Part shown: in pieces, positions 2,633 through 54,464 of the stretch | Layout of the letters: every line of letters begins with the position of its first letter | How positions within the stretch are numbered: position 1 is the stretch's first letter | Assembly (NCBI GenBank): GCA_028820655.1 | Contig: JAPPIK010000024.1 | Location: 124,001-188,000 of the forward strand | Length of the DNA stretch: 64,000 nt | Source of the DNA: Candidatus Poribacteria bacterium | GTDB lineage: Bacteria > Poribacteria > WGA-4E > JAJDTR01 | Direction: 5' to 3' | Translations under genes and position numbers: made by a program | Notes under the pieces: model-generated | Told to the model about the DNA's origin: nothing | What the model saw: only the letters and a program-made list of their open reading frames with translations | Databases searched by the model: none

Positions 2633-2712
2633 GATGTGCCGAGATGCATACGTCTAGGGTGATGATTGAAGATAGTTCTACATTACTAGCTGACGAACCG
2701 TGATAAGAGAAA

Positions 2713-4890
2713 ATGGATTGGATTGTCAAGAATCTCCTGCTTTTGTTGGCGGTTGGCGTACTTCCTCCTCCTAGCGCGGCGAGCGAAGAATCGGTACAAC
2801 ATCGCGTTTCCCCTCACCGGATTTCCGAGCACATCAAGGTCGATGGAGTTTTCGATGAGGGCGCTTGGCAAAGCGTAGAGCCAATCCGGCAGTTGCTTCA
2901 GATACAACCGAACCAAGGCGCGCCGATGACGCAGCCAAGCGAGGTGCGAATTCTCTATGACGAGAGAAATCTATACTTCGGTTTCACCTTTTTCGATTCG
3001 GAGATGGATAAACTGGTCGCCAACGAGATGCGCCGGGATTCCGAGGGGCTGCGGTCTAACGACTACGGTTATCTGCTGTTGGACACGTACAATGATCGAC
3101 GCAATGCGGTTTTCTTCCGTTTCAACCCGCTGGGCGGGATGGAAGACACGGCGGTGTCGAACAGCGGCGACAGTCTGAACAGCAACTGGGATATAGTCTG
3201 GGAATGCCGCGCCAAAATCAACCCGGACCATTGGACAGCGGAGATTGCCATACCGTTCAGTCAACTTCGCTTCGAGAAGAGCGATGTGATGACCTGGGGG
3301 ATAAACTTTGGTCGAGAGATTGCGCGATCTCAGGAGATAGGGGCGTGGATTCCGGCGCCCAAAACATACGGTCCCCTTGGCAAGTACCGTACCGCCTACT
3401 TCGGCAGTCTTACGGGATTAGAGGGCATTTTCCCTTCAAGGAATCTTGAACTGCTTCCTTATGTGTCGCCGGGGTGGAGCCGTGTACCGGCGGAAGACCA
3501 GACCGATGCCGTGTTCGAGGCAGGATTGGACTTCAAGTACGGCATTACCTCGAATCTCACGGCAGACCTCACGCTGAACACCGACTTCGCGCAAGTTGAA
3601 GCCGACGAGGAGCAGGTCAATCTCACGCGTTTCGGTCTGTTTTTCCCTGAACAACGCCCATTCTTTCTTGAAGGCGCCAGCATCTTCGATGTGGGTGTCC
3701 CGCGTCCGAGTTTCCGCAGACCTCCGCCGTTGCTTTTGTTCTACAGCCGCCGCATCGGTCTCGCAGAGGAGCGGGCGATTCCAATTGTCGCGGGCGGCAA
3801 GATAACGGGGAAGGTTGGACGATACGGTGTCGGTGTGCTTGACGTGTTCACGAATGAATTCCAAGATGAGGAGGTGGCGGAGCCTCGGACGAATTACTCG
3901 GTGGTGCGCCTGACGAGGGATATTTTCACCGGCTCGTCCGTCGGTGTCATCGCTATCAACAAACAGAGCGCCGGCGCCTACAATCGCACGGCGGGGCTAG
4001 ATTTTTCCTACCGACCACGGAAAGACCTTGATATCCGTGGGCTTTGGGCGCGTACGCTTGACGACGGAGTCTCGGAACAGAACGACGCCTTCTATTTGGG
4101 CGGCGATTGGCGTAACAATCGTTTTGAAGTAGAAGGGTCGTACACGGATATCGGAGAGCGATTTAATCCGGAAGTCGGATTCGTCCGGCGGGGAGGGGTT
4201 CGGCATGTTCGCGGCGGAGCACAGTATACCCCTTGGCCGCGGGCGTTCGGGATACGACAGATTGAAATTGGTCCCGAGGTTGGATTTGTATTGAACCGCG
4301 ACAATGAACTGGAAACGCGGGAGCTCGTCATAAGCAATGATTTCGACCTTGAAAGCGGTGATAGAATTGGTTTCGAAGCCAGGCATACGATGGAGCATCT
4401 GACGGAGGATTTTCATATTCAGGATTCTATCATCCCGGTAGGCGACTACAACTTCACTTGGTTTCAAGGATCGATTCATAGCAGCAGCAGTCGCACGGTA
4501 TTCGGCGATCTTCGCGTGGAGTTCGGGGAGTTTTATCACGGTACGCGACGCGGTATCGGCGTGGACGCAATCATCAAACCGAACGCGCAACTGAGTATAC
4601 AACCGTTGATCGAGTTTAACCGTGTAACGCTTCCGTCGGAGACGTTCAATGCCAGCATTTTTGCGGGACGAGTGAGTTATTCCTTTTCGACTAAGCTTTT
4701 CACCAAGTTGTTCGCGCAGTGGAGCAGCGATAGAGGGGCGACTACCGCGAACTTCCTGATTAACTATATCTACAGACCGGGCAGCGATTTGTACTTGGTT
4801 TTCAATCAGACGTATGATACTGAAGGAGAAGGCATCGATCTCCACGACTGGACGATTATCGGGAAAATGACGTATTGGTGGGTGCCGTGA
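2713..4890 (+). CDS. Exported CBM9-like / DUF5916 protein, copy 1
   Basis: 725 residues. A signal peptide (about 1-23) is followed by a domain resembling carbohydrate-binding module 9 (about 30-215; start VSPHRISEHIKVDG, later LYFGFTFFDSEM and WTAEIAIPFSQLRF). The rest (about 240-725) is rich in alternating beta strands and ends in an aromatic residue pattern (MTYWWVP), which fits the DUF5916 family and suggests an outer-membrane beta-barrel. Known members are of unsettled function; glycan binding or uptake at the cell surface is inferred from the N-domain. The ribosome site is weak. A second copy follows 238 bases downstream. Confidence 0.8.
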   Translation: MDWIVKNLLLLLAVGVLPPPSAASEESVQHRVSPHRISEHIKVDGVFDEGAWQSVEPIRQLLQIQPNQGAPMTQPSEVRILYDERNLYFGFTFFDSEMDKLVANEMRRDSEGLRSNDYGYLLLDTYNDRRNAVFFRFNPLGGMEDTAVSNSGDSLNSNWDIVWECRAKINPDHWTAEIAIPFSQLRFEKSDVMTWGINFGREIARSQEIGAWIPAPKTYGPLGKYRTAYFGSLTGLEGIFPSRNLELLPYVSPGWSRVPAEDQTDAVFEAGLDFKYGITSNLTADLTLNTDFAQVEADEEQVNLTRFGLFFPEQRPFFLEGASIFDVGVPRPSFRRPPPLLLFYSRRIGLAEERAIPIVAGGKITGKVGRYGVGVLDVFTNEFQDEEVAEPRTNYSVVRLTRDIFTGSSVGVIAINKQSAGAYNRTAGLDFSYRPRKDLDIRGLWARTLDDGVSEQNDAFYLGGDWRNNRFEVEGSYTDIGERFNPEVGFVRRGGVRHVRGGAQYTPWPRAFGIRQIEIGPEVGFVLNRDNELETRELVISNDFDLESGDRIGFEARHTMEHLTEDFHIQDSIIPVGDYNFTWFQGSIHSSSSRTVFGDLRVEFGEFYHGTRRGIGVDAIIKPNAQLSIQPLIEFNRVTLPSETFNASIFAGRVSYSFSTKLFTKLFAQWSSDRGATTANFLINYIYRPGSDLYLVFNQTYDTEGEGIDLHDWTIIGKMTYWWVP

Positions 4891-4995
4891 TCGCGTTTGC
4901 AGCGCCGCCCTAGAACTCGAATGCGTCGATTACGAGGATCGAGAAGAGAGTCCTACGTGGAGCCGAGAAAACAGCTAGGATTCCGCGCAACGTCT

Positions 4996-5057
4996 CTGGT
5001 GCAAGGGATCTCTTTCGCGCTCAATATTCATTCGCTTGATTCCTGTACGCACCTTAC
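4996..5057 (+). repeat. Nested element inside a GTGCGC-class REP
   Basis: Arms CTGGTGC and GCACCTTAC flank an insert from about 5005 to 5041 that starts GGGATCTCT and ends TCGCTTGATT. It lies between the two DUF5916 genes. The REP arms are partly worn. Confidence 0.65.
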
Positions 5058-5128
5058 GGGACAGGTTTCGGTAGCGCGTCATGCCCAATCTTAGAGTAGG
5101 CACGCATTGATGAGAAAAGATAGATTAG

Positions 5129-7297
5129 ATGGTCCGAAAATACCGGATTTTACTTGTGGCGTTCGTGTTGATGCCTCTTTTCGTAGCGAGTGCTAGTCCG
5201 ATGGATCATCTCGTTTCGCCGCATCGGATTTCTGAGAATATCATGGTTGACGGAATCTTCGCTGAGTCCGCCTGGCAGAACGCACAGCCGATTCGAAATT
5301 TTTTTCAGATACAACCGAACGAAGGTGCGCCGATGACGCAGCCGAGCGAGGTTCGCATTCTCTATGATGAGAAGAATCTTTACTTCGGTTTCAGGTTTTT
5401 CGACGCTGCGATGGATAAACTGGTTGCCAACGTGATGCGCAGGGATTCCTTAGGCCTGCAATCTAATGATTACGGGTTTTTGGTATTGGATACTTATAAT
5501 GACCGGCGCAACGCCGTTTTCTTCCGATTTAATCCGTTGGGCGGGATGGAGGACACGGCGGTTTCGAACAGCGGCGACAATCTGAACTCGAATTGGGACG
5601 TCGTATGGAAATGCCGCGCGAGAATCAACCCGGACCATTGGACGGCGGAGATTGCCATACCGTTCAGTCAACTCCGCTTCAAGAAGAGCGAGGCAATGGC
5701 TTGGGGGATAAACTTTGGACGGGGGATTGCGCGCAACCAAGAGATCGGGGCATGGAAACCGGCGCCCAAGACATACGGTCCTATGGGGCAGTACCGCACC
5801 GCCTACTTTGGCAGTCTTACGGGATTGAAGGGTGTCTCCCCATCACGCAATTTGGAAATTCTGCCTTATGTTTTAGCTGGCGGCAGCCGAGAAGCGGAGG
5901 TGGAGGAGACAAAGTCGGTGCTTGATGCAGGCTTGGACCTAAAATACGGCATCACACCGAATCTTACGGCGGATCTTACGTTTAACACCGACTTCGCGCA
6001 AGTTGAAGCCGACTCGGAGCAAGTCAATCTAACTCGCTTTGATCTATTTTTCCCGGAGCAACGACCCTTCTTTCTTGAAGGCGCCAGCATCTTTGATGTG
6101 GGTATCCCGCGACCCAACTTTTTCACACCCCCGCCATTGCTGTTATTCTATAGCCGCCGCATCGGTCTGGCGGAAGACCGTGCGGTGCCGATTATCGCGG
6201 GCGGCAAAATAACCGGAAAAGTTGGACCTTACGGGGTCGGTGTGCTTGATGTGTTTACGGGTGCATTGCAAGCGGACGAGGTGACGGAACCCCGCACAAA
6301 TTACTCCGTGCTGCGCCTGACGAGGGATGTCTTCGCCGAGTCGTCCATTGGCGCAATCGCCATCAACAAACAGAGCGCCGATGCCTACAATCGCACCGCG
6401 GGACTTGACTTTTCCTATCGACCGCGGGAAAACCTTACGGTCCGAGGATTGTGGTCGCGCACGTTTGACCATGCAACTCTCGCACAGGATGACGTCTTCT
6501 ACCTGGGCAGTGATTGGCGTACCAGTCGTTTTCAGGCGGCGGGGTCGTACACTGACATCGGAGAGCAATTCGATCCTAAAGTAGGATTCGTTTTTCGCAC
6601 AGGGGCTCGTCAGATCCGCGGCAGAGCGCAGTATACCCCTTGGCCGGAGGCATTCGGGATACGCCAGCTAAGGACCGGTCCCACGGTTGAATTGGTGCTG
6701 GACCGAGACAATGCACTCGAAACTCGAAACGTTACCTACGACGGGGAACTTGAGCTTGGGAGCGGGGATTGGATAGGTGTCCACGCCACGCATACAACGG
6801 AGCATCTCGACGAAGCGTTTGATATAGAGAACGCTGTCGTCCCAATCGGCGAACACGAGTTTACCCGGTTTGGTGCATACTATTTCGGGGATAGTAGTCG
6901 AAAGGTATTCAGCATACTAGGTATGGATTTTGGAGAGTTTTATCACGGTACGAAACGCGGAATTTTCGCGGAAGCGATTTTGAAACCGAGCGCGCGGCTG
7001 AGTATCCATCCTAGGCTTGCGTTGAATCGTATCAGCTTTCCGTCGGGTGTATTCAATGCCGGCGTTTTTTCCGGAAGGGTAAGCTATTCGTTTTCAACAG
7101 CGCTGTATACGAAGTTGTTTGCGCAGTGGAGCAGCGACAGTGACGTGGTTTCCGGCAACTTCCTGATAAACTATATCTACCGTCCGGGCAGCGATTTCTA
7201 CTTGGTTGTTAACCAGACGTATGATACCAAAGGAGAACGCCTCGATATCAGCGACTGGACGATTATCGGGAAAATGACGTATTGGTGGGTGCCGTGA
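5129..7297 (+). CDS. Exported CBM9-like / DUF5916 protein, copy 2
   Basis: 722 residues, closely similar to the preceding gene along its whole length, including the N-terminal HLVSPHRISENIMVDG region, the central FNTDFAQVEAD and FFPEQRPFFLEGASIFDVG segments, and the identical final residues IIGKMTYWWVP. A signal peptide covers about residues 1-23. This is a tandem duplication whose copies have diverged most in the C-terminal barrel-like part. Function as for copy 1: probably outer-membrane, possibly glycan-related. The PhyH gene 66 bases downstream may be co-transcribed. Confidence 0.8.
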   Translation: MVRKYRILLVAFVLMPLFVASASPMDHLVSPHRISENIMVDGIFAESAWQNAQPIRNFFQIQPNEGAPMTQPSEVRILYDEKNLYFGFRFFDAAMDKLVANVMRRDSLGLQSNDYGFLVLDTYNDRRNAVFFRFNPLGGMEDTAVSNSGDNLNSNWDVVWKCRARINPDHWTAEIAIPFSQLRFKKSEAMAWGINFGRGIARNQEIGAWKPAPKTYGPMGQYRTAYFGSLTGLKGVSPSRNLEILPYVLAGGSREAEVEETKSVLDAGLDLKYGITPNLTADLTFNTDFAQVEADSEQVNLTRFDLFFPEQRPFFLEGASIFDVGIPRPNFFTPPPLLLFYSRRIGLAEDRAVPIIAGGKITGKVGPYGVGVLDVFTGALQADEVTEPRTNYSVLRLTRDVFAESSIGAIAINKQSADAYNRTAGLDFSYRPRENLTVRGLWSRTFDHATLAQDDVFYLGSDWRTSRFQAAGSYTDIGEQFDPKVGFVFRTGARQIRGRAQYTPWPEAFGIRQLRTGPTVELVLDRDNALETRNVTYDGELELGSGDWIGVHATHTTEHLDEAFDIENAVVPIGEHEFTRFGAYYFGDSSRKVFSILGMDFGEFYHGTKRGIFAEAILKPSARLSIHPRLALNRISFPSGVFNAGVFSGRVSYSFSTALYTKLFAQWSSDSDVVSGNFLINYIYRPGSDFYLVVNQTYDTKGERLDISDWTIIGKMTYWWVP

Positions 7298-8340: not shown

Positions 8341-8366
8341 GGTCGCGACCGGGAGATCGCTCCTAC
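8341..8366 (+). repeat. REP-like palindrome, GTCGCGACC class
   Basis: GGTCGCGACCGGGAGATCGC followed by TCCTAC. The imperfect stem has CTAC at the right edge (GTAG on the other strand). Confidence 0.75.
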
Positions 8367-8387
8367 GAAAAGCAAAGGCGGGCAGGG

Positions 8388-8500
8388 TTTCTATAGGAGT
8401 TCTATAGGAGTTCTATGGGATCTCTATCGCGCTCGCTATTCACTCGCTTAATCAGTCATTATTCATTCCCTTGATCACTCACTATTCGTTCGTTTGATCA
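8388..8500 (+). repeat. Expanded nested element, about 110 bp
   Basis: Several 11-12-base modules ending in CTAT are stacked (TTTCTATAGGAG, TTCTATAGGAG, TTCTATGGGATC), followed by CGCGCTCGCTAT and three modules ending TTAATC or TTGATC. It is the clearest case of copy-number growth of both module types. Clear REP arms are not visible here. Confidence 0.7.
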
Positions 8501-10324: not shown

Positions 10325-10698
10325 AGAGGTCGTAAGAACACACTCATTGCACGCTGGATATGCGGGTCAGTAAGTTGGGTTTCACTCTAATATCCTGCGT
10401 TTTCATGCGGGAGAAAGCGTCGGAAGTTCTCTCTCTGTGCGCGATGTTATTTGGATTCTCGTTCAACCCAACCTTCGAGTTTGAAATGCTGAATTATGTT
10501 GACATTGATTTGAGACGTATCTGTTATGTGCCGAAAAAGCCTACTTGTCGGGCGAGGGAGGATCTCTATCGCACTCGCTAATCACTCACTTGATCCTCGC
10601 CCCTACGATGCGCGGTCATGTAACATTCCGGTCATTAACGGCTACACCGAATTGCCTCGGCGTGCATCAGGTCGAGGGCTGTCGAATAAGAGATAAGT
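10325..10698. other. Intergenic region with one occupied REP
   Basis: It lies between convergent genes. Apart from the nested repeat at 10550-10606 nothing was recognised. Confidence 0.6.
10550..10606 (+). repeat. Nested element inside a GGGCGAGG REP
   Basis: Arms GGGCGAGG (10550-10557) and CCTCGCCC (10595-10602), then CTACG. The 37-base insert begins GAGGATCTCTATCGC and ends CACTTGAT. The bases AGGATC at its left and GATCCT at its right are complementary, so the stem continues into the element ends. Confidence 0.85.
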
Positions 10699-22275: not shown

Positions 22276-22375
22276 ACTACATTAAGAACCTGTTTGAAAA
22301 GTCGGCAGCCAAGCCATTTTTCGTCATTTGAAGACAGTTTTTTCATGTTTTTGCAATTGCTCGCTATATACCCTT

Positions 22376-22456
22376 GGGATCTCTATGGGATTTCTATCGC
22401 GTTCCCTATCCACTCACTTGATCACTCGTTATCCACTCGCTTGATCCCCGCTAGGG
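22376..22456 (+). repeat. Nested element at a CCCCxxTGGGG palindrome
   Basis: Two CTCTAT/TTCTAT modules and two CTTGATC modules between 22377 and 22446, terminal GGGATC and GATCCC complementary. The right flank CCCCGCTAGGG resembles the small CCCCTCTGGGG palindrome seen free at 52172 and 52222, and the left flank CTATATACCCTT matches the left flank of those free copies. Confidence 0.75.
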
Positions 22457-22493
22457 ATTAGATGCGTGGGAGTTCGGTGTTTCTATAAACCTT

Positions 22494-22576
22494 CAAGATC
22501 TCTATGGGATTTCTATCGCGTTCCCTATCCGGTCACTTGATCACTCACTATCCGTTCGCTTGATCCCCTCTGGGGC
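22494..22576 (+). repeat. Nested element at a CCCCTCTGGGG palindrome
   Basis: Nearly the same as the copy 118 bases upstream: left flank CTATAAACCTTC, right flank CCCCTCTGGGGC. The element ends inside the left arm of that palindrome. Confidence 0.75.
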
Positions 22577-22583
22577 TTTTAGA

Positions 22584-22641
22584 GGCTGGTGCGCGGGATT
22601 TCTATCGCGCTCGCTATCCACTCGCTTGATTGCACCCTACA
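22584..22641 (+). repeat. Nested element inside a GTGCGC-class REP
   Basis: AGGCTGGTGCGC then GGGATTTCTATCGC through CACTCGCTTGATT then GCACCCTACAA. Comparison with 19054-19081 places the insert at the tip of the stem. Confidence 0.88.
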
Positions 22642-22832
22642 AATTGTATTTTTCAAACAGGCTCTAAAACGACTCCATATACTCTTGGAAAGAAAACCAT
22701 TTAGTGGTTCATTTGCTAAGTCTTTAATGCATGTTGAAACCGGGTTTTTTCCCGAAAACTTGGTTTCTTCCCCGATTCCTATTGACCTCAAGATTACGAT
22801 CTAGCCGACTCATCACCGGCAACTTGCCGCAT

Positions 22833-22975: not shown

Positions 22976-23068
22976 GGTGCGGTTAGAAGGGATCTCTACC
23001 GCGCTCGCTATCCACTCGCTTGCTGGATCTCTATCGCACTCGCTATTCACTCGCTTGATCACCTACCG
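22976..23068 (+). repeat. Two nested elements inside a GTGCGGTT-class REP
   Basis: Left GGTGCGGTTAGAA, right ACCTACCGG. Between them are two consecutive units, each GGATCTCTA through CACTCGCTTG. The empty site GGTGCGGTTAGAAACCGCAC is at 57560. The position of the break is the same as in the minus-strand copy at 50192. Confidence 0.88.
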
Positions 23069-23102: not shown

Positions 23103-23178
23103 GGTCGCGACCGGGAGAAGATTTCTATCGCGCTCCCTGTCCAGTCGCTTGATCTATTCGCTCATTTGATCCCCTCCG
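23103..23178 (+). repeat. Nested element in a GTCGCGACC-class left arm
   Basis: Left GGTCGCGACCGGGAG, then AAGATTTCTATCGC and two TTGAT modules, ending in CCCCTCCGGGGCTTT instead of the expected GCTCCTAC. It looks like a recombinant between two element copies. Confidence 0.65.
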
Positions 23179-30191: not shown

Positions 30192-30281
30192 GGAAGATCT
30201 CTATGGGATTTCTATCGCAGTCACTATCCGTTCCTTTGATCACTCATTATTCATACGCTTGATTTCAGTGCGCACCCTACA
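30186..30281 (+). repeat. Nested element inside a GTGCGC-class REP
   Basis: AAGGCTGG, then AAGATCTCTATGGG through CATACGCTTGATTT, then CAGTGCGCACCCTACA. Here the break is within the left arm, so the right arm and loop survive whole. Confidence 0.85.
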
Positions 30282-31960: not shown

Positions 31961-32106
31961 GATTTAACTTATCTCCATGGTTGCTCAAGACACAGGGCTA
32001 ACCAGAAACGACCTCGCTCGGCATTAGGCTATTCGAATAATCGGTAGAAAAGCGATATTTAGTCATTTGTAGACACGTTTTCTTTGTGATTTTCCGCTAT
32101 ATACCT

Positions 32107-32187
32107 GTGGAGTCTCTATGGGAGTTCTATCGCGTTCCCTATCCGGTCACTTGATCACTCATTATCCATTCGCTTGATCCCCGCTGG
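32107..32187 (+). repeat. Nested element at a CCCCGCTGGGG palindrome
   Basis: CTATATACCTGTGG flank, then GTCTCTAT, GGGAGTTCTATCGCG and two CTTGATC modules, then CCCCGCTGGGGC. Closely similar to 22376. Confidence 0.75.
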
Positions 32188-34697: not shown

Positions 34698-35804
34698 CTA
34701 TTCTCGACTAGTGCCCATGAGTTTTATCTTCCCCCACGCCGTGCTCAGTTTCTGCCTGCCGGGGGATACAGACCGTGGAAACGACGGATCAATCCAGTCG
34801 GGGTCAATGTCTCTGGTACCGCGGCCCCGTCCCCAGGGGTCCATATCATCCAGTAGGTTTGTGGGCTTGCATCTTGCCCCACACCCCTCGAAATCTTCAA
34901 TAACAAGGAGGTCGGCTTGGAAGCTGTCGGCTCCCACCACGGCGGAGAAGATAATGTCTCTACCGTTAGCAGGCAGCATGGGAGAACTTTCTCCCCAGCG
35001 CGGATTGTCGGTAATGTTGTGTTCCCTCTTCGTTTCAATATCTATCGTGTAGACCTCGCCATTCCCGTCCCTGTTGGTTGAGAAGGCGATTTTTTTGCCA
35101 TTTCGCGACCAGGTTGGTTGCGATTCGCTGCCGGGGTGATCGGTTATTCTCTCAACGCGACTTCCATCGGGGTTCATGATGTAGATGTTCTCGGATCCGT
35201 CCCGATTGCTTCTGAAGGCAATCTTCGTACCGTCATGAGAGAACGCCGGCTCGCGGTCCTCTGCGGGATGATTTGTCAAATTGCGTTGACCGCTCCCGTC
35301 GGAACGCATAAGGTAGATTTCACGGTTCCCGTCTCTCCTGGACATGAATGCGATTGTCTCACCGCTTCCCGACCATGTTGGCGATTCGTCCGTGTTCCCG
35401 GGATCGTTGGTAAGGTTTCGCACATTGTTGTTCATCGTGGCAGCAACTCTCCAACCGTGTTTGTGGGGCGATGAAATCACCCTGCCAAGTTCATCCCAAT
35501 CGACATCGATTGTAAAAACATCGCTCTTCCCGTCCCTATTACTCCCAAAGGCGATTTGTGAGCCATCGGGAGACCATGCCGGTTCCATCTCATTCTTTGG
35601 AAGATCCGTGACTCTTATTCGGTTTTTGCCGTCACTGGCCTCCATAACCCAGAGATCATGGCTTTTACCTGGAGGCTCTCCGGGGGGTGTTGTGTTTCTA
35701 GTAGAGGACCAGACGATTGTCCCCTTATCCCTCTGAGCTAGCGCGTCGCCCGTGATCCATAGTCCGATGAGAAAACAAACGGACACAACATACGCAGTTT
35801 TCAT
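34698..35804 (-). CDS. Exported TolB-like PD40 propeller, type C
   Basis: 368 residues with a signal peptide ending near DALA (23). About five WSPDG-type blades follow (AWSPDGSQIAFGSNRDG; TWSGSGETIAFMSRRDG; AFSHDGTKIAFRSNRDG; TWSRNGKKIAFSTNRDG), each about 43 residues, forming a six-bladed propeller as in TolB. A longer first blade holds an extra loop (DVDWDELGRVISSPHKHG). Near the end comes SVSPGRQKLSTAWGKIK, matching the tail shared by the four following paralogues. Such propellers bind proteins or sugars; here in the periplasm or outside. It is the most diverged of the five tandem copies. Confidence 0.8.
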   Translation of the reverse strand: MKTAYVVSVCFLIGLWITGDALAQRDKGTIVWSSTRNTTPPGEPPGKSHDLWVMEASDGKNRIRVTDLPKNEMEPAWSPDGSQIAFGSNRDGKSDVFTIDVDWDELGRVISSPHKHGWRVAATMNNNVRNLTNDPGNTDESPTWSGSGETIAFMSRRDGNREIYLMRSDGSGQRNLTNHPAEDREPAFSHDGTKIAFRSNRDGSENIYIMNPDGSRVERITDHPGSESQPTWSRNGKKIAFSTNRDGNGEVYTIDIETKREHNITDNPRWGESSPMLPANGRDIIFSAVVGADSFQADLLVIEDFEGCGARCKPTNLLDDMDPWGRGRGTRDIDPDWIDPSFPRSVSPGRQKLSTAWGKIKLMGTSRE

Positions 35805-36090
35805 TATTGTATTTCCTTACATTTCCAGTCAAGTATTGTGCTGACGTTAGCGGTATGGGCCGGTAACCGGTAAGGAACCAACAGTTTATCGGAAATCATC
35901 TTACCCGTTTTCCACTTTTTCTGTCAATGAAGATAAGATGCGATAACGCTTAAGTTCACTTATGAAGAAGGTCATTGAATGCTTCCGAGACCTAGCATAG
36001 GTCGAATATCGGGCGGGACGAAGCCTTGGGCAAGTTATACCATTTCTATATATTAGCAGTGCATTAATAGCGTCAATTAAGTCTGTCCAA

Positions 36091-36150
36091 AGCGGGGCAA
36101 GGGAATTTCTATCGCACTCGCTATTCACTCGTTTGATTCCCGCCTACGGG
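36091..36150 (+). repeat. Nested element inside a GCGGGGCA-class REP
   Basis: AGCGGGGCAAG, then GGAATTTCTATCGC through CACTCGTTTGATT, then CCCGCCTACGG. Compare the empty site at 9277. Confidence 0.87.
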
Positions 36151-36446
36151 GTTTGAAGGGAAACAGTTGTTATTATAGTAAATGAAAAGCACTATATGCA
36201 CTGTTTTTCAAGCGAAACAGAATTGTTACCCTCGGTGAGGGGCTGATTCAAAAACAGACAGGCTCTTTGCTATCAAGGGAGAGATTGATTTGCCTTCTCT
36301 CGCGATCCTTCAAACGAAAGTGAAGAGTATTCTGCTGTCGCAAGTGTTTGGTGGCTAGTGGTCAGTGGTCAGTAAAACGGTAAGTGTTTAGTCGTTAGTG
36401 ATTAGTGGACATTAAAATCCCTGTAGCCATAGGACGGAAAATGAAT

Positions 36447-36515
36447 GGGATCTCTATCAGGATTTACTATCCCACGGGATCTTCTATCGCACTCACTGTT
36501 CATTCGCTTGATCTC
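36447..36515 (+). repeat. Nested element copy with two head modules
   Basis: GGGATCTCTATCAGG, GATTTACTATCCC and CACGGGATCTTCTATCGC precede CATTCGCTTGATC; the flank TCGGCTGGGGC resembles the CCCCGCTGGGG palindrome. Confidence 0.65.
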
Positions 36516-36549
36516 GGCTGGGGCTATTGAGATTTGAGCAATCCGCAGG

Positions 36550-36574
36550 GCGCGATTCGGAGATCGCTCCTACA
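36550..36574 (+). repeat. REP-like palindrome, GTCGCGATT class
   Basis: GCGCGATTCGGAGATCGC then TCCTACA, one mismatch. Confidence 0.7.
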
Positions 36575-36671
36575 ATCAAGTGATAGCAAATATTCTTTGC
36601 GAGAGAACCATTAAGCGACGTAAGGACAGGATCTGGATTTACTGTAAGCAACCGAATCCGTCTGAAACGCA

Positions 36672-37628
36672 CTATTCAATCTTGTGCTTTAGCCAGCCCC
36701 ATGTAGCTTTGAACTTGCCGCCAGGTGAGACGGAAAACCCGCGAGGATCGTACAGGTGCGGACGGTCATCATAGCCGCGATGGTTTGTTAAGTTGGTTTG
36801 ATTGCCGCCGTCGGAATTCATAATGTAGATTTCACCGTTCCCGTCGCGCTCGGAGGTGAAGAGTATCTCTTTACCGTCAGGAGACCATTCGGAGGGCCAT
36901 TGATCCCCGGGAGTTTTCGTTATGTTGCGTGGATTGCCCCCATCGATATCCATAACGAAGACCTCCAGATCCCCGGTGCGATCGGACCAGAAAGCGATTT
37001 TTTTGCCGTCGGGAGAGCAGGTAGGCTCCCGGTCGATGGCGGGATGGTTTGTAATCCTGCGCGGATTGTCGCCATCGGGGTCCATAAGGTAGATTTCACC
37101 GTTTCCATCACGATCGGAGGTGAACGCGATGCTACCGTCGGGACACCAGGATGGCTGCTGGTTTTCTCCCTGCGCCGCATCCGTCAGTTGAACGCGGTTG
37201 TCGCCATCGGCATCCATAACGAAGATTTGGCGCCGTCCAACGTTGACCTCCATGACAATCTGTGTGCCGTCGGGTGACCACCCGACATCCAACTCCGCCT
37301 CCGCAGTATTCCCCAGACTGCGTTGATTCCTGCCATCGGGTTCCATCACGTAAACGTCCGCCTCCCAACCCTTGTGATCCCTGCCGCTGCAAAAGGCGAT
37401 GGTTGAGCCGTCGGGAGACCACCTTGGGGCAAAGTCGTCACCGGGATTTCTGGTTAGGTTTCGCGGATTGCTCCCGTCTTTGTTCATCATGTAGACTTCC
37501 CAGTTCCCATTCCGATCGGTCATGAAAATAATCTTTGCGTCTGTCGGCGGCTGCGCGTCTATGCATGGTACAGCGACGCTGAACAGTAGAGCGAAACTTA
37601 GTGTGATAGATACCGGAGTCTTCTTCAT
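36672..37628 (-). CDS. Exported TolB-like PD40 propeller, type A copy 1
   Basis: 318 residues from the ATG at 37628 with AAGGAG five to six bases upstream; the frame extends 28 codons higher without support. The signal peptide ends near IDAQ. Six blades with WSPDG or equivalents follow, e.g. RWSPDGSTIAFCSGRD, SWCPDGSIAFTSDRDGNG, TCSPDGKKIAFWSDRTGD and EWSPDGKEILFTSERDGNG. The C-terminus reads DPRGFSVSPGGKFKATWGWL, the shared tail. It is much more like the gene at 40418 than like its direct neighbours, so an A-type and a B-type were duplicated as blocks. Confidence 0.8.
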   Translation of the reverse strand: MKKTPVSITLSFALLFSVAVPCIDAQPPTDAKIIFMTDRNGNWEVYMMNKDGSNPRNLTRNPGDDFAPRWSPDGSTIAFCSGRDHKGWEADVYVMEPDGRNQRSLGNTAEAELDVGWSPDGTQIVMEVNVGRRQIFVMDADGDNRVQLTDAAQGENQQPSWCPDGSIAFTSDRDGNGEIYLMDPDGDNPRRITNHPAIDREPTCSPDGKKIAFWSDRTGDLEVFVMDIDGGNPRNITKTPGDQWPSEWSPDGKEILFTSERDGNGEIYIMNSDGGNQTNLTNHRGYDDRPHLYDPRGFSVSPGGKFKATWGWLKHKIE

Positions 37629-37854
37629 CGCAACTCTCCTTTTCAAGAGTTGGAAGCCCTGCGAAAGTCTTGAATAGCGAAGTGTTCGGCACGATTCGGG
37701 AGCGTAGTTCATGATCCTGCCTTCGTGCGAATCAGTGTGCGAATAGCTGGGATAATCGGGCTGTTTAGATTGCGTTCAAGAATAGGGGATCCTGTGTTGG
37801 CCTCGTTCAAAGTGAATCAAACGCCGCAAACCACCGAGTCTATCAAAAACAGCG

Positions 37855-38859
37855 CTACTCGATGTTCTGCTTAAGCCGTGCCCATGAAGTCTTGAGTTTG
37901 CCGGTAGGCGATACAGAAAGGCCGCGTGGATCGAACCAAGCGGGATTCTTGTCAGACTCGGCTTTTCTCGTTAGTCTGCGTTGGTTATTTCCATCGGTAT
38001 CCATAGCGTAGATTTCGAGGTTACCGTCCCGATTGGATTGGAAGGCGATACTTTTCCCGTCAGGAGACCAGGCGGGATTACTGTCAAGCGAGGGGTGGTT
38101 CGTTATGTTACGTTGATTCTTTCCATTGGCATCCATAACATAGATTTCCTCGCTATCATCCCGATAGGAGCTAAAGGTAATCTTGTTACCGCTGGGAGAC
38201 CAACTTGGATTCGTGTCAGTGAAGGCATGGTTCGTTATGTTGCGTTGATTGTTCCCGGAGCGATCCATAACGTAGACTTCGAGGTTACCGTCCCGCGCAG
38301 AGACAAAGGCGATTTCCCTACCGTCAGGAGACCAGGCCGGCGTAGTGTCAGCCGCGCGATGGTTCGTCAGTCTGCGTAGATTTTCCCCGTCGGCACCTAC
38401 CACATAGATTTCCCAGTTCCTATCCCGATTGGATTGGAAGGCGATACTTTTCCCGTTCGGAGACCAGGCGGGATAGTGGTCCAATGCGGGATTGTTTGTT
38501 ATGTTGCGTGGATTGCCATCCATGACCCCCAGTTCTCTGTCACCCTCGAGATCCACAAGGTAGATATCCACCAGCGCCGACCCACCGCCACCATCCCGAT
38601 TGGCGGTGAAGGCGAGTGTTTTCCCGTCAGGAGACCAGGCGGGAAATTGCTCGTTGCCGGGTGCTTGTTTCATCAGGGGGTGTTGATCATTTCCGTTCGT
38701 GTCCATTATGTAGATTTCGCTGAGACCGCCGAGACGTCGGGCGGACTCGAAGGCAATCCTTGTTTCCTCGGGCGCTTGCGCGTTTGTGAATGGCGCAATG
38801 CTACTCAACAGTATCACGCAACTTAACGAGATATGCGCAAGTTCCTGTTTGAATCCCAT
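37855..38859 (-). CDS. Exported TolB-like PD40 propeller, type B copy 1
   Basis: 334 residues from the ATG at 38859 behind GGGAGG. The signal peptide ends near TNAQA. Six blades include AWSPDGKTLAFTANRDGG, AWSPNGKSIAFQSNRDRN, AWSPDGREIAFVSARDGN, SWSPSGNKITFSSYRDDS and AWSPDGKSIAFQSNRDGN. The shared tail is FDPRGLSVSPTGKLKTSWAR. The next gene upstream (39211) is its closest relative; whole blades are nearly identical. A periplasmic or surface binding role is inferred from the fold only. Confidence 0.8.
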   Translation of the reverse strand: MGFKQELAHISLSCVILLSSIAPFTNAQAPEETRIAFESARRLGGLSEIYIMDTNGNDQHPLMKQAPGNEQFPAWSPDGKTLAFTANRDGGGGSALVDIYLVDLEGDRELGVMDGNPRNITNNPALDHYPAWSPNGKSIAFQSNRDRNWEIYVVGADGENLRRLTNHRAADTTPAWSPDGREIAFVSARDGNLEVYVMDRSGNNQRNITNHAFTDTNPSWSPSGNKITFSSYRDDSEEIYVMDANGKNQRNITNHPSLDSNPAWSPDGKSIAFQSNRDGNLEIYAMDTDGNNQRRLTRKAESDKNPAWFDPRGLSVSPTGKLKTSWARLKQNIE

Positions 38860-39210
38860 CGTATGCCTCCCTGAAGTTTTGGCAACTATAGTCAATTCAA
38901 CCAAGAATTATATATTTTGGACCAGACAGTTTGATCTGTAGAAACTGTAGTAACGCAGTTTGCCGTGTATCTTTTGTAGGAGCAAGTTTTACTCACGACA
39001 AGAGGTCGCGACCGGGAGGTCGCTCCTACAGGGAGTTGATTTGTCGCAACAACCTTCAATTTTCAAATCCGGTAACATACATTCAATATGTGTGTAAATA
39101 TGAATTCAAATGACTATATAAATTAGCCATAGTAGAGTTGTGTAGAGCTAGCGGAGGATTCGCTCCGTCAAGAAAGCGAGGACCAGTATGACCTTAAAGA
39201 CTTTCAAATC
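38860..39210. other. Intergenic region within the TolB-like array
   Basis: It holds an AAACTG...CAGTTT stem at 38942-38961 and an intact GTCGCGACC REP at 39004. The stretch 39123-39210 resembles 40345-40417, the 3' flank of the next paralogue. Confidence 0.6.
39004..39030 (+). repeat. REP-like palindrome, GTCGCGACC class
   Basis: GGTCGCGACCGGGAGGTCGC then TCCTACA, intact; same as 26701. Confidence 0.8.
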
Positions 39211-40206
39211 TTAATCGGTCTTCTTCTTGATCCAGCCCCACAATGTTTTGAGTTTGCCGGTAGATGGGGATACGGAAAGCCCGCGAGAATCAAACCAGGT
39301 AGGATTCTTGTCAAACTCGGCTTTTCTGGTTAGCCTGCGTTGATTGTCTCCATTCGAATCCATAACGTAGATTTCGAGGTTACCGTCCCGATTGGATTGG
39401 AAGGCGATAGTGCTGCCGCTTGGAGACCAGGATGGATTACTGTCGGCCGAGGGATGGTTCGTTATGTTCCGTTGATTCTTCCCATCGGCATCCATGACGT
39501 AGATTTCCTCGCTGTCATCCCGATAAGTGCTAAAGGTAATCTTTTTGCCGCTGGGGGACCAGCTTGGATTCGTGTCGGTGAAGGCATGGTTCGTTATGTT
39601 GCGCTGATTGTCCCCGGAGCGATCCATAACGTAGACTTCGAGATTACCATCCCGCGCGGAGACAAAGGCGATTTTCCTACCGTCAGGAGACCAATCTGGC
39701 GTATTGTCAGCCGCACGATGGTTGGTCAGTCTGCGCTTATTTGTCCCGTCGGCATCAATGACGTAGATTTCCCAGTTCTTATCCCGATTGGATTGGAAGG
39801 CGATTCTTTTACCGTTAGGCGACCAGGCTGCATATTGGTCCAAGCCGGGACTACTCGTCAGTTGGAATGGTTTGCCGGCTTCGGCGCCCAGCGGACGGTC
39901 ACTGTTAAGGGTCACAAGCCAGATTTCCTGATCGCCGGCCCGCTGTGAGGTGAATGCCATTTTTTTGCCGTCAGGCGACCAGGATGGATTTTGGTCGTTG
40001 TGAGGCGGGACGACGAATAGGGGGTGTTCATCCCTCCCATTGGCATCCATAATGAAGATTTCGGTGAGACCGCCATGTAAACGTCGGCCGGACTCGAAGG
40101 CGATCCTTGTTCCTTCGGGCGCTTTTGCGTTTGTAAATGGCGCAATGCCACTCAACAGTAACACGCAACTTAAGGAGATATACGTAGATCCCTCTTTAAA
40201 TCCCAT
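39211..40206 (-). CDS. Exported TolB-like PD40 propeller, type B copy 2
   Basis: 331 residues from the ATG at 40206 behind GGGAGG, with the same context as type B copy 1. The signal peptide ends near TNAKA. Blades: SWSPDGKKMAFTSQRAGD, AWSPNGKRIAFQSNRDKN, DWSPDGRKIAFVSARDGN, SWSPSGKKITFSTYRDDS and SWSPSGSTIAFQSNRDGN. The shared tail is FDSRGLSVSPSTGKLKTLWG followed by WIKKKTD. That last stretch and its 3' flank are closer to the type A gene at 40418 than to its B sister, which points to recombination at the 3' end. Confidence 0.8.
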   Translation of the reverse strand: MGFKEGSTYISLSCVLLLSGIAPFTNAKAPEGTRIAFESGRRLHGGLTEIFIMDANGRDEHPLFVVPPHNDQNPSWSPDGKKMAFTSQRAGDQEIWLVTLNSDRPLGAEAGKPFQLTSSPGLDQYAAWSPNGKRIAFQSNRDKNWEIYVIDADGTNKRRLTNHRAADNTPDWSPDGRKIAFVSARDGNLEVYVMDRSGDNQRNITNHAFTDTNPSWSPSGKKITFSTYRDDSEEIYVMDADGKNQRNITNHPSADSNPSWSPSGSTIAFQSNRDGNLEIYVMDSNGDNQRRLTRKAEFDKNPTWFDSRGLSVSPSTGKLKTLWGWIKKKTD

Positions 40207-40417
40207 CGTAAGCCTCCCTAACACTTTGCCAGCCATTTACCGCTTTATTTGCCGTGACTTCGCTAAATTAACTTGTAGCCCAAGATTCTATCTTGGTTTT
40301 TTCCGGTTGCTCGCGAAATCGCCAATTTAGAAAGTTGGACTACCAGTTGTGTAGAGTTTGCGCAGGTCACACCACCAAGAACACGAGGGCCACTATGATC
40401 TTAAAGAGTTTCAGATC

Positions 40418-41377
40418 CTATTCGGTTTTCTTCTTGATCCAGCCCCATGTTGCTTTGAACCGGCCATTAGGAGAAACAGCCGTTCCGGCACCTGGCTCAA
40501 ACAAGTCCGGACGGTCGTCATAGCCGGGATGGTTGGTTAGGTTGACTTGATTGCTGCCATCGGAATTCATGATGTAGATTTCACCGTTCCCATCCCGCTC
40601 GGAGGTGAAGAGTATCTCCGAACCGTCAGCAGACCAGTGCGAAGGCCAGTGATGACCGGGAGTTCTCGTTATGTTGCGTGCATCGCCGCCATCGATACCG
40701 GTAACGAAGACTTCCAGATCGCCAGCCCGATCGGACCAGAAAGCGATTTGTGTATTGTCCGGAGAACAGGTTGGTTCCCTGTCAGTTGCGGGATGGTTCG
40801 TTATTCTGGTCTGATTACCCCCATCAGCATCCATAAGGTAGACTTCACCGTTCCCATCCCGACCGGAGGTGAAGGCGATACGACCGTCAGGACAGAAGGA
40901 TGGCTGCTGGTTGTCTGCCATCGTCTCGTCCGTTAGTTGAAGGCGATTTTCACCATCGGAATCCATAACGAAGATTTGGCGCGGAGCAATATTCACTTCC
41001 ATGACGATCTGTTTGCCGTCAGGAGACCACCCTAAATCCTGTTCACCCTCCGGAGTGTTTGCCACACTACGTTGATTGCTACCGTCGGGGTCCATAAGGT
41101 AAACGTCCCCTTCCCAACCCATGTGATCTCTGCCGCTGACAAAAGCTATAGTTTTGCCATCAGGAGACCACCTTGGGGCAAAGTCGTCAGCGGGATTGTT
41201 GGTTAGGTTTTGTGGATTGCTCCCGTCCTTGTTCATAATGTAGACTTCAAAGTTCCCATCCCGATCGGTCATGAAGACAATCTTTGGTTCTGTCGGGGCT
41301 TGTGCGTTTATACCTAGCACGGCGACGCTGAACAGTAGCGCACAACTTATTGTGATAGCCGCAAGTTTCTTCTTCAT
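40418..41377 (-). CDS. Exported TolB-like PD40 propeller, type A copy 2
   Basis: 319 residues from the ATG at 41377 behind AAGGAG; it is the first gene of the tandem array. The signal peptide ends near INAQ. Blades include RWSPDGKTIAFVSGRD, GWSPDGKQIVMEVN, SFCPDGRIAFTSGRDGNG, TCSPDNTQIAFWSDRAGD and HWSADGSEILFTSERDGNG. The tail is GTAVSPNGRFKATWGWIKK. Blade-by-blade it matches the gene at 36672. The five genes have gaps of 170 to 870 bases, so they are probably not one tight operon. Confidence 0.8.
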   Translation of the reverse strand: MKKKLAAITISCALLFSVAVLGINAQAPTEPKIVFMTDRDGNFEVYIMNKDGSNPQNLTNNPADDFAPRWSPDGKTIAFVSGRDHMGWEGDVYLMDPDGSNQRSVANTPEGEQDLGWSPDGKQIVMEVNIAPRQIFVMDSDGENRLQLTDETMADNQQPSFCPDGRIAFTSGRDGNGEVYLMDADGGNQTRITNHPATDREPTCSPDNTQIAFWSDRAGDLEVFVTGIDGGDARNITRTPGHHWPSHWSADGSEILFTSERDGNGEIYIMNSDGSNQVNLTNHPGYDDRPDLFEPGAGTAVSPNGRFKATWGWIKKKTE

Positions 41378-41855
41378 GGTATAACTCCTTTTCAGGTGTT
41401 CGATTGTAGTTTTGGAAGTCCCGTTAAATCCGAGCATCGATATTGCCGGACTTCTGCACTAAAGAGATCAATACTACGGTGCGCAATATGGTGACTAGCT
41501 CCCACCGTCACATGAATAAACAGAAAATACCATGCATACGACGTTCTGTCAAGAAGTATCGGCTTTAGATGGGAATTGTGCGTGTGTGGCTGTTGCAGAG
41601 ACCTAAACTGCCAGTCTAGCGGGGTTCAGTTTCAAGGTGTATGGAAGGACAGAGTTGCCACGTACCAAAGCCAAGCATGGAATTAAGCGCGTGAGTAGTG
41701 AGAGCGGTAGAGTTTCCGAGTCGCTTATCAAACGTGTAATGGGCAGATGCTGCACGTACGGTTAAACAAGGGGAAAAACTTCACGACCATTTCACCACCT
41801 TCATCAGCCAAACCCAACGGTTAGCGCAATTTGCTTGAACCAAACTAAACTGGTT
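41378..41855. other. Non-coding stretch before the Rpn cassettes
   Basis: No gene. A sequence at about 41730-41775 has a weak likeness to group II intron domain V (see findings). Confidence 0.5.
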
Positions 41856-46874: not shown

Positions 46875-46933
46875 TCGCGACCGGGAGAGGATCTCTATCG
46901 CACTCCCTATTCAGTCGCTTGATGGCTCCTACA
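46875..46933 (+). repeat. Nested element inside a GTCGCGACC-class REP
   Basis: TCGCGACCGGGAG, then AGGATCTCTATCGC through CAGTCGCTTGATG, then GCTCCTACA. Comparison with 26701 shows only GTC of the right arm has been lost. Confidence 0.88.
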
Positions 46934-50191: not shown

Positions 50192-50287
50192 CGGTAGGTG
50201 ATCAAGCGACTGGATAAGGAGTGATCAAGTGAGTGGATAACGAACGCGATAGAAATCCCATAGAAATCTCTTTCCAACCGCACCTAC
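50192..50287 (-). repeat. Nested element inside a GTGCGGTT-class REP, minus strand
   Basis: On the minus strand: GGTGCGGTTGGAAA, then GAGATTTCTATGGG with two TTGATC modules, then ACCTACCGAAAC. Same insertion point and same relative orientation as at 22976, though the whole composite is inverted. Confidence 0.88.
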
Positions 50288-54339: not shown

Positions 54340-54464
54340 GGCTGGTGGGATCTCTATCGCAGGATTGCCTATCGCACAGAATTTGCTATCGCGCTCCTTA
54401 TCCAGTCGCTTGATCGTTATCCACTCGTTTGATCAGTCATTAACCATTCCTTCGATCCCACCCC
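54340..54464 (+). repeat. Expanded nested element inside a GTGCGC-class REP
   Basis: AGGCTGGT, then GGGATCTCTATCGC, GGATTGCCTATCGC, AATTTGCTATCGCGC and three TTGATC or TCGATC modules, then CCACCCCATG. Terminal TGGGATC and GATCCCA are complementary. It is one of the two longest copies. Confidence 0.7.

Follow-up and report, generated by a model that had tools for sequence, protein, structure and literature searches.

A high-copy intergenic repeat of nested hairpin modules at the tips of REP hairpins in a Candidatus Poribacteria genome

The window analyzed here, a stretch of 64,000 nucleotides, corresponds to positions 124001-188000 of contig C41 (JAPPIK010000024.1) in a genome bin of 5.88 Mb (G000). 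It includes two adjacent genes of about 720 amino acids each (2701-7297), which are tandem duplicates with 72-73% identical DNA, and a region (34700-41450) in which several genes carry 132-bp internal repeats, recognized by eye as beta-propeller-like protein repeats. At 8384-8499 lies a modular element that folds on the minus strand and consists of three tail and four head modules (T3H4). In the order of the folding strand, these are tail module 1 (8477-8499, GATCAA plus the hairpin ACGAACGAATAGTGAGT, with a weak CM hit at 8477-8499), tail module 2 (8454-8476, GATCAA plus GGGAATGAATAATGACT), tail module 3 (8431-8453, GATTAA plus GCGAGTGAATAGCGAGC, with a CM R1 hit of 48.9 bits at 8420-8453), the core GCG with the first head module (8417-8430, ATAGAGATCCC) and head modules 2-4 of 11 nt each (8384-8416, ATAGAACTCCT, ATAGAACTCCT and ATAGAAACCCT). 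These are the boundaries of the element proper, which is adjoined by an empty GTAG-tagged REP hairpin of family D on the same strand (8342-8366, GTAGGAGCGATCTCCCGGTCGCGAC).

Further copies in the window also fold on the minus strand, except where indicated. A REP hairpin at 10545-10606 (GTAGGGGCGAG ... CTCGCCC) carries an element with one tail and one head (T1H1) at 10559-10595. Two T2H2 elements follow at 22376-22446, where the RNA fold of the minus strand gives the tail hairpin with a 2x2 GA loop, and at 22495-22565, in the AGCCCCAGAGGG hairpin family (F), and a T1H1 element is located in REP family A at 22595-22631 (GTAGGGTGC ... GCGCACCAGCC). At 22989-23060 two elements are arranged head to tail, the second being of the CAGCAA/GCGGTAG type, and the element at 23118-23171 has chimeric flanks, family F on the 5' side and family D on the 3' side, with a 17-nt tail spacing (loop insertion). 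T2H2 elements are also found at 30194-30264 and at 32098-32179, the apparent third head of the latter being a downstream ACAG match, and T1H1 elements in REP family B at 36102-36138 (GTAGGCGGG ... CTTGCCCCGC) and in REP family D at 46888-46924 (GTAGGAGC ... CTCCCGGTCGCGA). The T2H2 element in REP family C at 50200-50270 (GGTAGGT ... TTTCCAACCGCACC) is among the few that fold on the plus strand. The element at 54346-54457 has three tail and three head modules; the initial annotation had given it (as copy 54340) four heads and three tails, of which the tails agree, while its counts of four heads for copy 8388, two plus two for copy 22376 and one plus one for copy 10550 were confirmed. A 381-bp MITE-like unit was observed at 22287-22665, and eight such pairs occur in 2.05 Mb.

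The element is a high-copy intergenic repeat, with about 1000 copies in the genome. A search for the core TCTATCGCNNTCNNTATYCANTCRNTTGAT with up to 2 mismatches gave 819 matches and 0 for the reversed control, and a genome-wide search with the tail pattern gave 1463 matches and 13 in its control. Parsing of 2.05 Mb of this genome yielded 346 elements, 324 of which are intergenic although intergenic DNA makes up 18% of that sequence. Matches were present in 7 of 85 Poribacteria genomes, being numerous in 4 of these 7, and the pattern was also found in named sponge-derived Candidatus Poribacteria, whereas a pattern scan of IMG/VR gave no match. No description of the element was found in the literature on Poribacteria repeats or structured RNAs. 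A known structured RNA was rejected as its identity, with 0 Rfam matches in the window at the curated gathering cut-off and chance-level hits only at a permissive one. Contig JAAXGF010000024.1, labelled Alphaproteobacteria Plut_88856, has several elements, which occupy the same hairpins, and part of it aligns to C41 at 75%; it is likely a poribacterial contig. In the genome of the sister species (G001), four equally scoring copies are located at contig ends (C18:19-89, C36:19-89, C44:19-89 and C166:21-91), so that a longer element-containing repeat probably breaks the assembly there.

It could be argued that these copies are only passengers of larger composite elements, such as MITE-like units with terminal inverted repeats, since the 381-bp unit, with ends GARCCTGTTTGAAAA/TTTTCAAACAGGYTC and three elements inside, is 97% identical at two unrelated places. 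Just 10 of the 346 elements, however, lie inside such bounded units, and most are single and located in different hairpins, which makes this explanation very improbable.

On the folding strand, the unit is GATCAA plus a 17-nt hairpin, followed by GCGAT and AGANATCCC. The 23-base tail module is GATCAA plus the hairpin xyGAnm-GRATA-m'n'GAy'x' (minus strand at 8384-8499), and the head module comprises 11 bases, ATAGANNTCCC, located 3' of the core GCGAT. Over the 346 parsed elements, tail modules were spaced by exactly 23 nt in 76 of 87 cases and head modules by 11 nt in 82 of 123, with minor classes of 12, 13 and 17 nt. The initial annotation had described copies that differ by whole modules, and this was borne out: length variation across the parsed elements was stepwise, not continuous. 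Elements contain internal hairpins and no ORF and measure from 37 to about 120 nt, and the commonest form is T1H1 (179 elements), with T2H2 found 34 times. Tail and head counts were correlated (Spearman 0.475, n=291), and changes in tails only or in heads only were also observed. Mismatches per module were slightly more frequent in multi-tail copies (0.65 vs 0.38), which may therefore be older or less constrained. The spacing of about one helical turn per module had been taken as a possible sign of a bound protein, for which no evidence was found. The 11-base step is the size of the head module in the fold, and protein-binding boxes at one-turn spacing were rejected because a single fold accounts for both the 11-nt and the 23-nt step, one on each side. 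The modules are real, as parts of a folded structure rather than as helical-phase boxes.

In this fold the tandem G.A mismatches lie between two outer and two inner pairs, and the five-base loop is GRATA (R = A or G). In three dimensions, such a hairpin would combine a short stem and tandem G.A mismatches with a pentaloop of the GNR(N)A kind. When the copies are listed, bases vary in matched pairs. For 77 non-redundant copies (A1), 92.2% of the stem cells were paired and the four-pair stem had a covariation score of 0.968, compared to 0.342 in shuffled data (0 of 500 shuffles reaching it) and 0.03-0.19 for slid pairs. The same stem was recovered by RNAalifold unaided, and the top three pairs in a mutual information analysis over all columns were three of the four stem pairs. 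In 213 strict hits, the inner pair was G-C in 129, A-T in 32 and C-G in 31, the next pair C-G in 134, T-A in 32 and G-C in 18, and the outer pair (x-x') G-C in 83, G.T in 66, A-T in 22 and C-G in 19. Since the outer pair is frequently G.T (66) and rarely A.C (4) on one strand, that strand was identified as the folding one. The stem pairs covary independently in three other Poribacteria genomes (G001, G004 and G014). While the stem letters vary, the GA of both arms and the loop bases are 90-98% conserved, except at the loop R position, and the G.A/G.A mismatches are retained at 95-97%. A reading of TTATCCAC..GATC as a DnaA box with GATC was rejected, since covariation pairs the first bases on either side of the loop. 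Structure prediction for the DNA and RNA forms, proposed in the initial annotation, produced the tail hairpin in the RNA fold of the 22376 copy, but thermodynamic folding was indecisive overall: RNA folding favours the folding strand in some copies only and DNA energy folding gives little signal. The fold suits RNA equally well.

Modules are also connected between the two sides of the core. The third tail-linker base and the fourth base after the hairpin (L3-H4) covary, being T-A in 236 and G-G in 30, with p=1.6e-28 for the association in single layers. In multi-layer copies it is the last tail that matches the first head (G-G 7, p=9e-8), and not the first tail (G-G 1, p=1.0), which indicates concentric layers in the order tail1 (tail2 core head1) head2, so that tail and head counts increase together. 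The L3-H4 contact would be non-canonical, since G-G cannot stand in for T-A within Watson-Crick pairing. Support is good for the covarying hairpin, for the strand on which it folds and for the nesting of the modules. Slippage or unequal exchange, to which the modular variation had initially been attributed, agrees with the tail-only and head-only changes and with chimeric flanks, but the main pattern is paired growth of nested layers. Copies with a 17-nt tail spacing resemble an insertion into the loop of another copy. Short terminal GATC pairs had also been claimed, which holds only in part: at L1-H12, 56 copies have G-C, whereas 42 have A.C and 24 have C.C, and no covariation was detected in the GATC/GATC outer stem. 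Covariation does not support the further idea that these ends let the REP stem continue into the element, and an enclosing stem made by both arms of the REP was rejected as weak, with at least 5 bp in 24% of the elements vs 16% for permuted partners.

The link to REPs drawn in the initial annotation was correct, and it is stronger than stated there, as the element replaces the tip of REP hairpins. The same core was found in place of the tip in at least 6 hairpin families with unrelated stems, mostly GTAG-tagged REPs and one without GTAG, and for families A, B, C, D, F and G empty and filled forms coexist in the same genome. The empty hairpins are GTAGGGTGC-GCACT-GCGCACC, GTAGGCGGG-GCATC-TTGCCCCGC, GTAGGT-GCGGT-TTCCAACCGC, GTAGGA-GCGAT-CTCCCGGTCGCGA, GTAGGGTGG-GCACT-GCCCACC and AGCCCCAGAGGG-GCGG-AAGGTGTATAG, the middle part being the tip that is replaced in filled copies. 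In these, about 5 bases of the tip are replaced, the 3' arm is complete and the 5' arm is cut, and a 3' arm that lacks its partner suggests that the empty state is the older one. At one orthologous REP, G001 has the empty hairpin and G000 a two-layer element in the same place. The direction from empty to filled is suggested by this site together with the geometry, and the invasion of hairpin tips is supported by the many families and the same site. GTAG is present in the 16 nt upstream of 112 of 291 elements (about 40%) and CTAC in 5, the remainder being in other hairpins or behind another element; the downstream flank has no CTAC excess (CTAC 26 vs GTAG 50). A scan for perfect hairpins gave only a modest GTAG enrichment, because most REPs here are imperfect. 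Flanks of two families around one element, as at 23118-23171, point to exchange between copies. At G004:C9:86000-102000, a Y1 transposase gene was observed inside a cluster of near-identical single-layer elements of the AAGCGCCAGYGTGC hairpin family, all in one orientation.

Plain REP evolution would dispense with a separate element: loops of GTAG REPs would have grown by slippage, and the covariation would come from quasipalindrome template switching. Self-complementary stretches do occur in known REP loops, which reach 20 bp (PMC3733652), and one-sided module changes like those expected from slippage occur here. Nevertheless, at least 6 families whose stems are unrelated share this core, including one that lacks GTAG, template correction would erase the G.A/G.A mismatches that are kept in nearly all copies, and the element is decoupled from REP family A across genomes, G004 having about 150 elements and 1 such REP, and G021 the reverse. 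We consider this origin quite improbable.

A comparison of 17 orthologous gaps between G000 and the sister species, at loci picked for elements in G001, revealed the element in one species only in 12 gaps, in opposite orientation in 3 and as possibly shared in 2. Loci thus turn over while the fold is kept, from which we infer a role of the fold in copying the element itself; the spread of the element seems to resemble that of a tiny parasite. Neighbouring copies agree in orientation up to 50-100 kb, independently of gene direction, and this regional orientation suits a strand-specific DNA process. In G000 contigs C13, C2, C41 and C42 the orientation of elements was uniform over tens of kb, possibly a replication-strand mark; GC skew as a predictor of orientation showed no correlation.

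These results bear on the alternative of a functional RNA element, whose folding strand would be transcribed in UTRs and bind a protein or ligand, with copies recruited to many genes. Tandem G.A pairs, a GNR(N)A-like pentaloop, a G.U-type wobble and a T-A/G-G non-Watson-Crick pair are RNA-like features, and in gaps between co-directional genes the folding strand coincides with the coding strand 77 times out of 125 (77 vs 48, p=0.012), a weak bias. The element has no Rfam family, however, its copies are hardly ever common to orthologous sites, 5' and 3' arrangements of neighbouring genes are both roughly as intergenic length predicts, and the regional orientation persists irrespective of gene direction. 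An RNA function is therefore unlikely, although less so than the alternatives considered above.

The reading that we favour, and regard as probable, is that of a non-autonomous hairpin element which nests in itself and is multiplied in the form of single-stranded DNA, perhaps via a Y1 transposase or template switching. Its active form would be one folded strand (the minus strand at 8384-8499), and the unit would replace the tip of about 5 bases of an existing hairpin, whether a GTAG-tagged REP, the AGCCCC..GGGG hairpin or a copy of itself. Insertion around its own core would produce nested layers, with tails (23 nt, 5' side) and heads (11 nt, 3' side) added in pairs, and slippage and exchange between neighbouring copies would account for unpaired steps and chimeric flanks. 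Multiplication may occur on single-stranded DNA at replication, and the candidate agents would be a Y1 (HUH) transposase of the REP type, supplied in trans, or template switching driven by the hairpins. Genes for Y1_Tnp are present in 28 of 30 related genomes, with or without the element, and some have an element within 400 bp, which intergenic density could explain: in a rough estimate, proximity to Y1 transposase genes did not clearly exceed the expectation from that density. TnpA-REP proteins act on single-stranded GTAG hairpins, in which they read mismatches or loops (PMC8266576), and on this ground such proteins are candidates only. No target-site duplication was found in the comparisons of filled and empty sites, and a transposon would not normally take the place of the tip. 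That the element represents a distinct class of self-nesting mobile hairpin, which targets single-stranded hairpin tips including its own and builds recursive layers with one non-Watson-Crick contact each, is a tentative proposal that we would not yet favour.

The analysis ties the growth of a repeat by modules to a concrete fold, and it provides a case, open to testing, of an element with hairpin tips as landing sites. The hundreds of copies also form a large natural set of tandem-GA pentaloop hairpins in which compensatory changes are already present. Confirmation would carry the REP/REPIN picture beyond simple palindromes to recursive structures, and would raise the question of which enzyme or replication error copies them.

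Among known systems, a CRISPR array was rejected because adjacent modules differ by paired changes and there are no spacers, and a MITE of a DDE transposon because its GATC ends lack the covariation of a terminal pair and the filled/empty comparisons showed no duplication. BOX elements of Streptococcus pneumoniae are, like the present element, modular intergenic repeats with a variable number of middle modules, but here the modules are nested pairs backed by covariation, and we know of no sequence common to both. Small dispersed repeats of Nostoc share the occurrence of very small repeats inside other repeats, and to our knowledge they have no covarying hairpin modules of the present kind. The strand-specific single-strand hairpin typical of IS200/IS605 or HUH-type elements was found here (G.T vs A.C 66:4, and covariation), and the element is too short to encode a Y1 transposase.

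A GTAG-tagged REP is a short palindrome with a stem of 5-13 bp. Together with TnpA-REP/RAYT (REPtron), such REPs resemble the element in their intergenic location, high copy number and strand-specific hairpin, in the GTAG that some copies have 5' of the stem and in the Y1 transposase genes of the genome. Loops of known GTAG REPs, however, have 2-20 bp (PMC3733652), whereas the insert described here consists of 37-120 nt of ordered hairpin modules, is the same in several REP families and in a non-GTAG hairpin, and nests in itself. Insertion sequences that target REPs (ISPsy8, ISPpu9/10 and IS1397; PMC1525189) likewise insert at or near the symmetry axis of the REP hairpin, but they are coding, leave the REP halves intact and often produce short target repeats, unlike the present element, which has no ORF, replaces about 5 bases and hits many hairpin families. 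REPINs, in which a spacer of set length separates two inverted REPs (PMC3116915), are also non-autonomous, with a single-strand hairpin as the presumed moving form and compensatory changes in the spacer. Instead of two inverted REPs, as the counts of 5' GTAG (112 of 291) and downstream CTAC (26, vs 50 GTAG) indicate, the element is one hairpin with a conserved modular insert and unrelated outer stems. Because it lacks the short loop and has GTAG in only part of the copies, we file it not as a REP but as a variant of the non-autonomous REP/REPIN-like hairpin repeats.
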